Position numbers and translations under genes: made by a program. Of a DNA stretch of 64,000 bases, positions 11,361 through 16,232 are shown one piece after another. The stretch spans positions 124,003-188,002 of the forward strand of contig NZ_LNAL01000006.1 in NCBI RefSeq assembly GCF_001483135.1, read 5' to 3'. The stretch's first letter is position 1; each line of letters begins with the position of its first letter. The stretch comes from Solirubrum puertoriconensis. GTDB lineage: Bacteria > Bacteroidota > Bacteroidia > Cytophagales > Hymenobacteraceae. The notes beneath the pieces are model-generated. The model saw only the letters and a program-made list of their open reading frames with translations. It ran no database searches and had not been told where the DNA came from.

Positions 11361-11792
11361 CTAGGCGCTGATTTCAGCTGCGGGCTGCGCTTGCTCAATC
11401 AGCGTTGGGTTCATGTACATCAACTCCCACAGGTGGCCGTCGGGGTCCTGAAAGTTGCGGGTGTACATGAAATCGGAGTCGGGCAGGGGCTGGGAGGCAA
11501 TGGCGCCGGCGGCCAGGGCTTTATCCGCAAGCTGGTTTACCTCCTCGCTGCTGTCGAGGGCGAGCGACAGGATTACTTCGGTGGTTCGGGTGGCGTCGGC
11601 GACAGGCTTGGGGGTGAAGGTCCGAAAAAACGGCTCCACCAGCAGCATAACGTAAATGTCGTCGCTGACGACCATGCAGGTAGCGCGCTCGTTGGAAAAC
11701 TGCGGATTGAAGCGGAAGCCGACCTTGGTGAAAAATTCAATAGCAGCGCCTAGGTCACGAACGGGCAGATTTACAAAGATTTTAGTAGGCAT
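11361..11792 (-). CDS. VOC family protein, copy 1
   Basis: A glyoxalase/bleomycin-resistance/extradiol-dioxygenase fold protein of 143 residues from the ATG at 11792 (MPTKIFVNLPVRDL). Further upstream codons are low-complexity and not conserved with copy 2, so I reject the longer start. Motifs: FFTKVGF in the first beta-alpha unit and NFQDPDGHLWELMYM, the classical C-terminal metal-ligand strand with Glu. It is about 70% identical by eye to the VOC protein at 14948-15382. The TAG stop lies inside a CCTAGG palindrome. Substrate unknown; Bacteroidota genomes carry many of these. Confidence 0.88.
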   Translation of the reverse strand: MPTKIFVNLPVRDLGAAIEFFTKVGFRFNPQFSNERATCMVVSDDIYVMLLVEPFFRTFTPKPVADATRTTEVILSLALDSSEEVNQLADKALAAGAIASQPLPDSDFMYTRNFQDPDGHLWELMYMNPTLIEQAQPAAEISA

Positions 11793-11987
11793 AATGGGTG
11801 GTGTTTTGGTGATGTATGCTAAAGTTATTGGTTTGTATTTGAACATACTAAATAATTTAGTAAAACAGTTGGTTTTTGCAAGGTATTTGTTTGTTAATCA
11901 AGTATGTAAAAATGTGATTGGTCGAGTCTTTGACTCCACTTGTCTGAGACCCTCATCGGCTGCTATTAGCTGAGCAAAAGAAATGCA

Positions 11988-12838: not shown

Positions 12839-12988
12839 ATGAAACTACCTAAAGCTGTACTTGGCGCCGTGCTGGTTGGCCTGACTATTCAGACCACCAC
12901 CAGTTGCGTAAAAGAAGACGTAAAGCCCAAAGAAGAGAAGGGCAGCACCAAAGCGCCTGCAAACTGCCCCGCCTGCGGTATGGGCTAG
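12839..12988 (+). CDS. Candidate MNIO-class RiPP precursor peptide ending CPACGMG
   Basis: A 49-residue peptide starting at the ATG at 12839. Residues 1-22 form a hydrophobic leader (MKLPKAVLGAVLVGLTIQ, then TTTS) reaching Cys23, which could serve as a lipobox-like cleavage site. Residues 24-41 are a Lys/Glu-rich spacer. The C-terminus is NCPACGMG (42-49), with cysteines at 43 and 46 in a C-x-x-C arrangement. It ends 30 bp before a DUF692/MNIO oxidase gene. Short peptides with a C-terminal cysteine motif next to DUF692 enzymes are the recognised arrangement of MNIO RiPP systems such as methanobactin and the chryseobasin type of Chryseobacterium. The assignment as substrate is inference from context and motif. 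The Cys residues would be the modification sites. Confidence 0.8.
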   Translation: MKLPKAVLGAVLVGLTIQTTTSCVKEDVKPKEEKGSTKAPANCPACGMG

Positions 12989-13018
12989 ACAGGCATTGTC
13001 CTTACTGCTACACTCTTT

Positions 13019-14152
13019 ATGGAAGCCGCGCCGCCCCTCTACGCCTCGGTAGCCTGCAACCTCGATGCCGACCTGCTCGCCGCGGCTTACCCCTTGCTCG
13101 AAGAAGGCCGGGTAGAGGCCCTGGAGTGGTCGTTTGATGCGCTGTACTGGGCCGAGCAAGTGCCCGAGTGGTTTACGAACCTGCTGCATACTTACGCCGG
13201 TGCCGGCCGACTGGTAGGCCATGGCGTGTTTTTCTCGCTGCTATCGGGCAAGTGGAGCCCCGAGCAGCAGCAGTGGCTGGCGCACCTAGGGCAGCTGGCC
13301 GAGCAATTTCGCTTCGACCACATTACCGAGCATTTTGGGTTTTTCACGGGCCAGAACTTTCATCACGGGGCGCCGCTGCCCATTCCGTACACCGCTACGG
13401 CCTTGCGCATAGGGCAGGATCGGCTGCGGCGCATCTACGACGCCTGCTGCTGCCCCGTTGGGCTCGAGAACCTGGCTTTTGCCTACACCCTCGACGAGGT
13501 AAAGCGCCACGGCAACTTTCTGGAAGAGCTGCTGCTGCCCGTCAACGGCTTCGTGATTCTGGATTTGCACAACCTGTACTGCCAGCTCCACAACTTCGGG
13601 GTACCTTACGACGAGCTGATTGCGCTGTATCCGCTCGAGCGCGTGCGCGAAATCCATATTTCGGGTGGCAGCTGGCACGATTCGGAGCAGGCACCCAGCC
13701 AGCGCATCCGCCGCGACACCCACGACGACGCCGTACCCGAAGAGGTATTTCAGCTGCTGGAGCTAACCATGCCGCGCTGCCCCAACCTAAAATTTGTGGT
13801 GCTGGAGCAGCTTGGCCACGCCCTGCACGCCGAGGCCAGCCGCACGCAGTTTCGGGAGGACTTTGGCCGCATGGAAAGCCTGGTAGCCCGCCACCGCGCC
13901 GCCTTGCGCACCCTGCCCACCAACGATTTTCGGCCCCAACAAACCTGGCCGCCCAGCACTGCCGCCGAAGATGAGCACCTGCACCGGCAACAGCGCCAGC
14001 TTTCCGATATCTTGGAAAACGCACCCAGCTACGCCGAGGCGCAACGCCTGCTCCAGGCTTCGGGCCTGGCCCACTCCGATTGGCGCATCGAGCAATGGGA
14101 GCCGCACATGCTGGAAACCGCCCTGCACATTGCCCGCAAGTGGAAGACTTAA
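13019..14152 (+). CDS. DUF692 multinuclear non-haem iron oxidase (MNIO), putative RiPP-modifying enzyme
   Basis: The 377-residue cytoplasmic protein has the DUF692 TIM-barrel pattern. Putative iron ligands visible in order are His101 and Glu104 (DHITEHFGFF), Glu150 (VGLENLAF), Asp182/His184 (LDLHNLY), His213 (REIHISGGSWHDS, with a second His at 220), the DTHDDAVPEE segment, and Glu in VVLEQLGHAL (about 263). MNIOs use several irons and O2 to rearrange cysteine or aspartate residues in precursor peptides. The family core is about 280 residues, so residues from about 295 form an 80-residue extra C-terminal part, largely helical (HRQQRQLSDILENAPSYAEA). The precursor-like gene lies 30 bp upstream. 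No DUF2063-type partner or exporter gene is adjacent. Confidence 0.85.
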   Translation: MEAAPPLYASVACNLDADLLAAAYPLLEEGRVEALEWSFDALYWAEQVPEWFTNLLHTYAGAGRLVGHGVFFSLLSGKWSPEQQQWLAHLGQLAEQFRFDHITEHFGFFTGQNFHHGAPLPIPYTATALRIGQDRLRRIYDACCCPVGLENLAFAYTLDEVKRHGNFLEELLLPVNGFVILDLHNLYCQLHNFGVPYDELIALYPLERVREIHISGGSWHDSEQAPSQRIRRDTHDDAVPEEVFQLLELTMPRCPNLKFVVLEQLGHALHAEASRTQFREDFGRMESLVARHRAALRTLPTNDFRPQQTWPPSTAAEDEHLHRQQRQLSDILENAPSYAEAQRLLQASGLAHSDWRIEQWEPHMLETALHIARKWKT

Positions 14153-14252: not shown

Positions 14253-14630
14253 CTAATAAGCAAACACTTTGTGGTAGGCCAGGCCGTACCGGTTGGGGCC
14301 GGGGGTGCCGTCGGCGCAAAGCAGATACAGCAGCCACGCCCAGCCTACTACGGGTACAAACGCAGCCAGCAGGTTCAGGCCGCTGCGGTTTACATCGTGC
14401 AGGCGGCGGGTGCCCGCCGAAATATTCGGCATCAGCACCGCGAGCATGTACATCAGGAAGGTGTAGCCAACGGCCGATTCGTCGTCGAGGGTGATGCCTA
14501 GAACGTTGTCGAGCAGCAGGGCCGTAGCCCCGAATAAGGCTTGGTAAGCAACAAACATCCAGTATTCCTTTCTCCTGGCCCGGCCGGTAAATACCCCGAA
14601 TTTGTCGAAGGCTCGCAGAAAGTAGCGCAT
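14253..14630 (-). CDS. DUF805 membrane protein, copy 1
   Basis: The 125-residue inner-membrane protein has four hydrophobic segments and the DUF805 signature: N-terminal FTGRARRKEYWMF (the RxxRxEYW box) and central RRLHDVNRSG (RRLHDxxxSG). The end YLLCADGTPGPNRYG is also typical. DUF805 proteins have no established function. It is clearly paralogous to 15596-15985 and carries the same upstream leader (14653-14711). Confidence 0.9.
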   Translation of the reverse strand: MRYFLRAFDKFGVFTGRARRKEYWMFVAYQALFGATALLLDNVLGITLDDESAVGYTFLMYMLAVLMPNISAGTRRLHDVNRSGLNLLAAFVPVVGWAWLLYLLCADGTPGPNRYGLAYHKVFAY

Positions 14631-14652
14631 GCTGTGAGGTGAGGGTTATCGG

Positions 14653-14711
14653 TCCTACTCGTATGGCTTTTCGGTTGCGCCCCGTTTTTTAGGGTGGGTG
14701 CTGGTCTCCAC
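14653..14711 (-). promoter_or_regulatory. 59-bp duplicated leader upstream of DUF805 copy 1
   Basis: Matches 16008-16066 at all but a handful of its 59 positions, and lies exactly 23 bp from the start codon in both cases. The core is CTTTTCGGTTGCGCCCCGTT. Conservation of a non-coding block at fixed spacing suggests a promoter or operator, or simply a recent duplication that has not yet diverged. Confidence 0.5.
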
Positions 14712-14871
14712 CTAAGTGCCTTATAACGCACACTTGCGCGCAGGGTACATTCGGGCGAGTAAGTATGGCATCGTACCTGCCGAAGATAACTGAGCCATGG
14801 CACAGCACAAATAAAGTGCCGCATTGGGTGTAGCGCAGTGACGCCCGCTGCTTGGCGGTGGTTATGCTTCA

Positions 14872-14947: not shown

Positions 14948-15382
14948 CTACACGGCGGTGGCCGTGGTGGCGGGTTGTTCCTGCGGGATGGCGCTCATGT
15001 CCATGTACATCACTTCCCACAGGTGGCCGTCGGGGTCCTGGAAGTTGCGGGCGTACATGAAATCCTGGTCTTGCAGCGGTTTCGACTGCTTGGCACCTGC
15101 GGCCATAGCTTTGTCCACGAGCTGGTCTACCTCCGCGCGGCTCTCGGCCGATAGGCAGATGATTACCTCCGTGCTTTGCGCGCTATCGGCAATGGCTTTG
15201 GGCGTGAAGGTTTGGAAGAAAGGCTCCACCAGCAACATTACGTAAATGTCGTCGCTGATGACCATGCAGGTGGCGCGCTCGTCGGTAAACTGCTGATTGA
15301 ATTCGAAGCCCAACTGCGTGAAGAACTCGATTGAGGCTTGAAGGTTCCGGACGGGCAGGTTTACAAAGATCTTTCTGGCCAT
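14948..15382 (-). CDS. VOC family protein, copy 2
   Basis: A 144-residue glyoxalase-fold protein starting MARKIFVNLPVRNL. It shares FNQQFTDERATCMVISDD and NFQDPDGHLWEVMYMD with copy 1 at 11361, about 70% identity overall. Even the DNA just upstream of the starts is alike (GTGGTGTTTT in both). It lies downstream of DUF805 copy 2 on the same strand. Activity and substrate are unknown. Confidence 0.88.
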   Translation of the reverse strand: MARKIFVNLPVRNLQASIEFFTQLGFEFNQQFTDERATCMVISDDIYVMLLVEPFFQTFTPKAIADSAQSTEVIICLSAESRAEVDQLVDKAMAAGAKQSKPLQDQDFMYARNFQDPDGHLWEVMYMDMSAIPQEQPATTATAV

Positions 15383-15595: not shown

Positions 15596-15985
15596 TTAAT
15601 AGGCCATAATGGGCTCCTGGTTTTCGGCTTTGGGGTCGGTGCCGTATTGGTTGTCGCCGCGGGTGCCTTCGCTGCACATCAGCACGAGCAGCCAAATAGC
15701 ACCAATCAGCGGCACAAACCCGATGAGCAAAAACCAACCGCTCTTGTTTACATCGTGCATGCGGCGCACGGCTACAGCCAAACCCGGGATCAGCATGCCA
15801 AGTGAGTACAGGCCGTAAATCATGCCGTAGCCGATACCGTCGAATGCCAGGCCCAGCACGTTATCGAGCACCATGGCTGCAATGGCGAAGATGATGTTGA
15901 ACAGCGTGAACATCCAGTACTCCTTGCGGCGGGCGCGGCCGCTAAAGGTGGCGTAGTTCTTTAAGGCGTGTAAAAAGTATTGCAT
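15596..15985 (-). CDS. DUF805 membrane protein, copy 2
   Basis: The 129-residue protein has the same motifs as copy 1: FSGRARRKEYWMF, VRRMHDVNKSG and LMCSEGTRGDNQYG. Four membrane segments are likely. The C-terminus is a little longer and ends PIMAY. It is preceded by the 59-bp leader at 16008-16066. Together with VOC copy 2 it forms the second half of a duplicated DUF805+VOC block. Confidence 0.9.
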   Translation of the reverse strand: MQYFLHALKNYATFSGRARRKEYWMFTLFNIIFAIAAMVLDNVLGLAFDGIGYGMIYGLYSLGMLIPGLAVAVRRMHDVNKSGWFLLIGFVPLIGAIWLLVLMCSEGTRGDNQYGTDPKAENQEPIMAY

Positions 15986-16007
15986 GCGCTAGCTCGGGTG
16001 ATGCGTT

Positions 16008-16066
16008 TCCTACTCGTAAGGCTTTTCGGTTGCGCCCCGTTGTTTAAAGTGAGTTCTGGTCTCCAC
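16008..16066 (-). promoter_or_regulatory. 59-bp duplicated leader upstream of DUF805 copy 2
   Basis: Second copy of the block at 14653-14711, also 23 bp before the start codon. Differences are concentrated in the part furthest from the gene. Confidence 0.5.
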
Positions 16067-16232
16067 TGAGCCAAGTGGCTGAAAGGGCTGCGCGCGGGAG
16101 AATGGCAGCTGCTTGCAGCCTTGCTGGCTTCAGCTGAAATATAGGAACTCAGAATAAGATAATGAGCGCGCCGAAGTTCAATTTTTCGGAACTGCGCCTG
16201 CCAAAGCCCAACGGCCTAGGTGCCGCAGGCGG

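Follow-up and report, generated by a model that had tools for sequence, protein, structure and literature searches.

A probable minimal DAG-RiPP locus of the dyb/hym type in Solirubrum puertoriconensis and its occurrence across Hymenobacteraceae

In the stretch of DNA analysed here (hereafter the window), comprising 64,000 nucleotides of Solirubrum puertoriconensis (GCF_001483135.1, contig NZ_LNAL01000006.1, positions 124,003 to 188,002), a short peptide gene (12839..12988, forward strand) is followed by a gene encoding a DUF692 protein, a multinuclear non-heme iron-dependent oxidase (MNIO; 13019..14152, forward strand). This pair is very probably a minimal two-gene locus of the dyb/hym type, encoding a diacylglycerol-bearing ribosomally synthesised and post-translationally modified peptide (DAG-RiPP), since the gene pair and its motifs match that type, PF09836 and PF08592 are absent, and the LspA and Lgt genes are present; the assignment concerns the product class, not its role. 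The broader proposal made in a first-pass annotation of this DNA, an MNIO-class RiPP locus, is supported by family models, iron ligands, predicted fold, and co-conservation. The chemistry has already been described in relatives, with one Hymenobacter pair tested, and the window locus is a further example, not a new kind.

The precursor peptide and its oxidase

Read directly from the window, the open reading frame (ORF) of the peptide runs from an ATG at 12839 to a stop codon at 12986-12988, and its 49 residues are arranged as the first-pass annotation had described, with a hydrophobic leader, a Lys/Glu spacer, and an NCPACGMG end. Residues 1-22 (MKLPKAVLGAVLVGLTIQTTTS; 12839..12904, +) were recognized by eye as a lipoprotein-type N-terminal signal sequence, a layout shared by the family peptides. 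Cys23 (12905..12907, +), the third conserved cysteine and the lipidation site predicted from comparison of the family peptides, follows TTTS and occupies the place of the lipoprotein-signal cysteine of a dyb-type precursor. A Lys/Glu-rich spacer (residues 24-42; 12908..12964, +) leads to the core CPACGMG (residues 43-49; 12965..12985, +), which directly precedes the stop codon, like the C-terminal CPxCGxG of dyb-type peptides, and is the predicted site of macrocycle and hydantoin formation (PMC12636315).

The NF050125 model of chryseobasin-related MNIO RiPPs matched the peptide with 78 bits (cut-off 40) over model positions 1-56 of 56, while the score against the equivalog of the true chryseobasin precursor, ChrA, was 19.5 of the 50 bits demanded (NF050124 and NF050165 being the ChrA/ChrH model pair). 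Moreover, comparison with the two nearest relatives gave nonsynonymous over synonymous rates (dN/dS) of 0.046/0.449 and 0.094/0.685, that is, ratios of about 0.10 and 0.14 over 49 codons only, indicating that the peptide gene is under purifying selection; the low dN/dS and the whole-length model match argue that the ORF did not arise by chance. A start further upstream, at the in-frame GTG 12608 that would give a 126-aa ORF, is disfavoured because the NF050125 model starts at MKLPK, and among the three closest species the codons just upstream of the ATG vary, by eye, more than the peptide. A scan of the DNA for sigma-70 promoters and terminators returned nothing clearly exceeding shuffled sequences. 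The remark that such a precursor is too short for many annotation pipelines stands in part, as the (incomplete) gene table of a Hymenobacter volaticus plasmid gives the DUF692 gene and not the peptide, whereas NCBIfam does hold a model for it.

The oxidase gene starts at ATG 13019, after the noted gap of 30 nt, and its stop codon ends at 14152. Its 377-aa product, the only PF05114 (MNIO/DUF692) protein encoded in the window genome, belongs to this family by score, TIM barrel, and multinuclear iron ligands. Alignments and the predicted fold delimit a catalytic TIM-barrel domain at about residues 6-294 (13034..13900, +; the VIA-align structure rows span residues 6-297 of the enzyme model), followed by a C-terminal helical extension at about residues 295-377 (13901..14149, +), with predicted helices at 319-334, 338-347, and 362-374, that resembles the additional domain with which ChrH-subfamily enzymes are reported to end (PMC12636315). 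The nine iron ligands listed for TglH, H71, H107, E151, D184, N187, H216, D229, H231, and E258 (PMC10880893), align by eye with H68, H105, E150, D182, N185, H213, D233, H235, and E263, confirming the earlier statement that metal-ligand positions are retained, and these positions are invariant in 54/54 aligned ChrH-type enzymes.

Against the ChrH equivalog the enzyme scored 370 of 600 bits over residues 13-376, and against the BufB model 88.5 of 310 bits. On these scores it is a member of the ChrH subfamily, but neither ChrH itself nor a bufferin maturase, and a subfamily score below the ChrH cut-off fits the DybH/HymH branch. Among named genomes, Hymenobacter supplied the closest enzymes found (69 to 75% identical to the window enzyme), which places the window genome in Hymenobacteraceae, and identity to a Dyadobacter luticola relative (L011) is 59%. 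In the window genome, a family search found neither PF09836 (DUF2063) nor PF08592, which we take to be the family of the DUF1772 protein ChrI.

Co-conservation, neighbourhood, and history in Hymenobacteraceae

A census of 204 Hymenobacteraceae genomes, searched with PF05114 and NF050125, yielded 52 PF05114 matches in 50 genomes. ChrH-type enzymes account for 46 of these (94.9 to 124 bits); the remaining six (L096-L101) scored 351 to 369 bits and are probably bufferin-type enzymes separate from the ChrH-type genes, a typing based on the score and on 25-28% identity to the window enzyme. Directly upstream of every ChrH-type enzyme (46/46) lies a peptide ending in C-x-x-C-G-[MLR]-G, 44 of them recovered by script as CPxCGxG and two by reading, as CLSCGMG (L077) and CQGCGMG (L091). 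The two patterns named in the first-pass annotation as contrary evidence, DUF692 homologues consistently devoid of the peptide and a peptide ORF not conserved in relatives, were not found in these 204 genomes. Tandem precursor peptides precede a single enzyme at two loci, L052 (genome G405) and L066 (G443).

Searched from the side of the peptide, 51 genomes matched NF050125, 48 of them over the cut-off, including the 46 genomes of the enzyme census, and an enzyme adjoins the peptide in 47 of the 48; in genome G510 the enzyme beside the peptide is cut by a contig end. The sole peptide without an enzyme (L197, reverse strand, G445:C29:33168-33302) has lost the CxxCGxG tail, its frame ending KPEPCLL, and is a relic peptide gene that retains signal sequence and spacer. 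No PF05114 match was found in the G445 genome, and none of 54 enzymes matched the 10 kb around L197 (E 0.01), while in the control all 54 matched locus L088. Among the three genomes with NF050125 matches below the cut-off, G453 carries an enzyme of the probable bufferin type. A loose DNA pattern (CPxCGxG plus stop) had at least one match in 132/204 genomes; it was excluded from all counts because it accepted TGG as a stop and many of the listed matches were other sequences. An evenly drawn sample of 395 genomes from Bacteroidota, that of the window included, contained six with a ChrH-type enzyme above 300 bits, two of these above the ChrH cut-off, and three with an NF050125 peptide above its cut-off. 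Unrelated neighbours and a chance ORF are both ruled out by the co-conservation and dN/dS.

The surroundings of the pair were compared by clustering ORFs of at least 80 aa within about 7 kb on each side of the 46 loci, several of which are truncated at a contig end; genes were called simply as the longest ORFs, and most peptides, falling below 80 aa, were found separately. The MNIO was present in 46/46 and, apart from ORFs overlapping it, the next family in 12/46, a short-chain dehydrogenase by appearance, at scattered distances and on both strands; within these limits no third gene was conserved across the loci. A Pfam scan of 85 of the 91 nearest neighbours, from which six upstream ORFs overlapping the peptide region had been dropped, counted adh_short seven times and the TonB plug three times among the 25 commonest of 99 families. 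Neither the clustering nor the nearest-neighbour Pfam scan at the 46 loci revealed a dedicated transporter, receptor, protease, regulator, or immunity gene travelling with the pair.

In four genomes of the window's genus (G000, G591, G592, and G594) the pair sits between SpoIIAA-like and RlmF-type methyltransferase genes, an interval that also contains one or two glyoxalase genes, and in G593 it lies on another contig. Three further congeners (G588, G589, and G590) lack the pair but preserve the gene order SpoIIAA-like, glyoxalase, methyltransferase, and neither peptide nor enzyme turned up elsewhere in them by family search. On the enzyme tree, in which 14 of 52 inner branches are unresolved, the genus label changes 7 times (minimum 5; mean after shuffling 23.7), a close fit to the genera. 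Since congeners keep the flanks without the pair and the tree mostly follows genera, the patchy distribution would mostly reflect repeated loss of both genes as a unit, with some relocation. The alternative of an ordinary small lipoprotein encoded next to an unrelated DUF692 gene, which draws on the fact that short lipoprotein-like ORFs are common in Bacteroidota, is scarcely credible beside 46/46 enzymes with a peptide, a sole enzyme-less peptide that has lost its tail, and the joint absence of the pair from three congeners.

As for mobility, one copy of the pair (L181) lies near replication initiation and ParA genes on a 330-kb Hymenobacter volaticus plasmid (NZ_CP095062.1), the only one among 192 plasmid records with some match in which at least 80% of the enzyme was covered. 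Viral contigs gave 22 stretches matching the pattern, with no relative among them, and the PHROGs search gave no match. In the window, two glyoxalase-type genes that are about 68% identical flank the pair (11361-11846 and 14948-15382, both on the reverse strand). A single glyoxalase gene occupies the interval in the three congeners without the pair, and since the pair-bearing G592 and G594 have one copy as well, it is doubtful that these genes bear on how the pair was kept or lost.

Predicted maturation and anchoring

The DybH/HymH branch was characterised by Chen and colleagues in a preprint dated 1 November 2025, which reports that DybH, with no partner, converts the CPACGMG of DybA with a loss of 4 Da into a macrocycle plus hydantoin, established by nuclear magnetic resonance, leaving one thiol free (PMC12636315). 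According to the same text, the seven-residue tail placed on GFP suffices as DybH substrate, the third cysteine of DybA is diacylglyceryl-modified and N-acylated in Escherichia coli, and HymA/HymH of Hymenobacter gelipurpurascens gave a -4 Da product in E. coli (PMC12636315). The window pair shares with DybA/DybH of Dyadobacter crusticola the CPACGMG core, the lack of a partner protein, and the third cysteine; unlike it, the pair belongs to another genus and family. It also resembles HymA/HymH, a Hymenobacter pair whose ChrH-subfamily MNIO acts on a CPxCGxG tail, a comparison made by description only, in which HymA ends CPGCGLG and the window peptide CPACGMG.

Chryseobasin and the bufferins are more distant. 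The CPACGMG tail and an MNIO match over residues 13-376 are held in common with ChrA/ChrH/ChrI of Chryseobacterium; ChrA is longer, has a predicted signal for signal peptidase I and no third cysteine, and gives an S-methylated product (+10 Da) from an operon with chrI, chrE, and chrP (PMC10214503). Unlike chryseobasin proper, both window proteins fall below the ChrA and ChrH equivalog cut-offs. Bufferins (BufA/BufB/BufC) likewise start from an MNIO-modified precursor with a signal peptide, and their enzymes are described with a DUF2063 partner (PMC12452194), which is absent from the window genome; this type is ruled out by the BufB score and the absence of PF09836.

By analogy with the characterised relatives, the window enzyme would act alone in the cytoplasm on the C-terminal CPACGMG, removing four hydrogens, so that Cys43 and Cys46 would be joined in a macrocycle, a hydantoin formed, and one thiol left free; the calculated neutral monoisotopic mass of the full peptide would pass from 4998.61 to 4994.58 on conversion. 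The peptide would then be exported, Lgt would add diacylglycerol to Cys23, and LspA would cut off the 22-residue signal, leaving on the envelope, probably at the outer membrane, a 27-residue lipopeptide whose free end carries the modified ring. We infer this ring formation, lipidation, and location for the window organism from its relatives, and the LspA and Lgt genes of its genome permit lipidation but do not show it. The lipid anchor guessed at in the first-pass annotation agrees with the Dyadobacter homologue, as reported in the preprint (PMC12636315), and with the invariant cysteine after the leader.

The family itself comprises 47 distinct peptides of 49 to 65 residues, each with exactly three cysteines, one of which directly ends the hydrophobic leader in 47/47. 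Their tails are CPACGMG (20), CPGCGMG (11), CPACGLG (7), CPGCGLG (4), CPACGRG (3), CQGCGMG (1), and CLSCGMG (1), variants which suggest that naturally occurring peptides can dispense with either the Pro or the Met of the motif. Counted over 54 peptides, other families included and L077 and L091 omitted, the first cysteine follows S in 30, G in 18, and A in 6, and T is the most frequent residue at -2 (42) and -3 (38).

After the cysteine, the window peptide reads V-K-E-D, and V-K-[E/D]-D when its two nearest relatives are included, which fits C-X-K-(D/E)2-X, reported as the signal for optimal surface export in Capnocytophaga canimorsus (PMC5080379), and predicts cell-surface display in these three. 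It is conceivable, and on balance doubtful, that the pair forms a self-contained display device in the window species and those closest to it, in which the lipidated peptide with C-V-K-E/D-D shows its thiol ring outside the outer membrane and is kept or lost as a unit without any other gene.

Several observations weigh against the assignment and the anchoring predicted from it. The score of 370 against 600 bits bars the name ChrH, and the placement in the DybH/HymH branch was made from family scores and published descriptions of DybH and HymH. Frequent SusCD neighbours have been reported for DAG-RiPP pairs (PMC12636315), and Pfam on the nearest neighbours only found no SusCD conserved beside the pair in Hymenobacteraceae. 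The lipobox -3 position holds T or A in 51/54 peptides, against the classical L. The strict surface motif occurs in 5/47 distinct peptides and the relaxed one in 12/47, and positions +1 to +6 after the cysteine contain on average 1.47 acidic residues, compared with 2.33 for nine SusD proteins encoded in the window genome; because the motif is rare and acidic residues are fewer than in SusD, surface display is not a prediction for the whole family. The atypical -3 residue would also suit cleavage by signal peptidase I, with the modified peptide released free into the periplasm or medium as predicted for ChrA, whose tail and enzyme subfamily are the same; this outcome is nevertheless very unlikely in view of the leader-end cysteine in all 47 peptides and the lipidation reported for the homologous Dyadobacter peptide (PMC12636315).

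Possible roles of the product

The function of DAG-RiPPs is called unclear by the preprint authors themselves (PMC12636315), and no later paper on the role of DybA, DybH, or DAG-RiPPs was found among the top matches of a literature search. We tentatively put forward, as one possibility among several, a function of the thiol-bearing ring that stays in the envelope, rather than a released antibiotic or metal uptake; the lack of a conserved transporter, receptor, protease, regulator, or immunity gene with the pair argues weakly in this direction.

Two other roles are compatible with the DAG-RiPP product class. That the product buffers metal in the envelope or serves as a metallophore, in the manner of bufferins, oxazolins, or methanobactin, seems rather improbable. 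Other MNIO products bind copper (PMC12452194), the product would retain one free thiol (PMC12636315), and before modification the tail bears a weak resemblance to the CPxCG metal knuckle (Pfam RUBY_RBDX, E 0.015, 15.2 of 26.5 bits); however, the related product is reported without the absorbance feature of the aromatic groups of methanobactin and bufferins (PMC12636315), the pair has no conserved neighbour encoding a metal transporter, receptor, or regulator, and the metal binding that the first-pass annotation had suggested for the CxxC core found no support in this analysis. Less likely still is an antimicrobial or signalling peptide whose ring mimics the B ring with which lantibiotics bind lipid II, a likeness that the preprint authors point out (PMC12636315), and a role in keeping with the patchy occurrence in 46/204 genomes, since no gene for immunity, export, or release is conserved alongside the pair, the core varies little among the 47 distinct peptides, and the enzyme tree mostly follows genera, unlike what is expected of a rapidly exchanged weapon. 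For the envelope function and both of these alternatives, the Hymenobacteraceae census provides a clean comparative frame: a two-gene unit with no obligatory neighbour, three flank-bearing congeners without the pair, and one relic peptide without an enzyme.

Downstream of the pair, two DUF805 RNA motifs (Rfam RF03081) were found on the reverse strand at 14648-14716 and 16003-16071 (72.2 and 66.9 bits; gathering threshold 51.1), each just upstream of a DUF805 gene on the same strand (14253-14630 and 15596-15985), and the products of these genes share about 48% identity.
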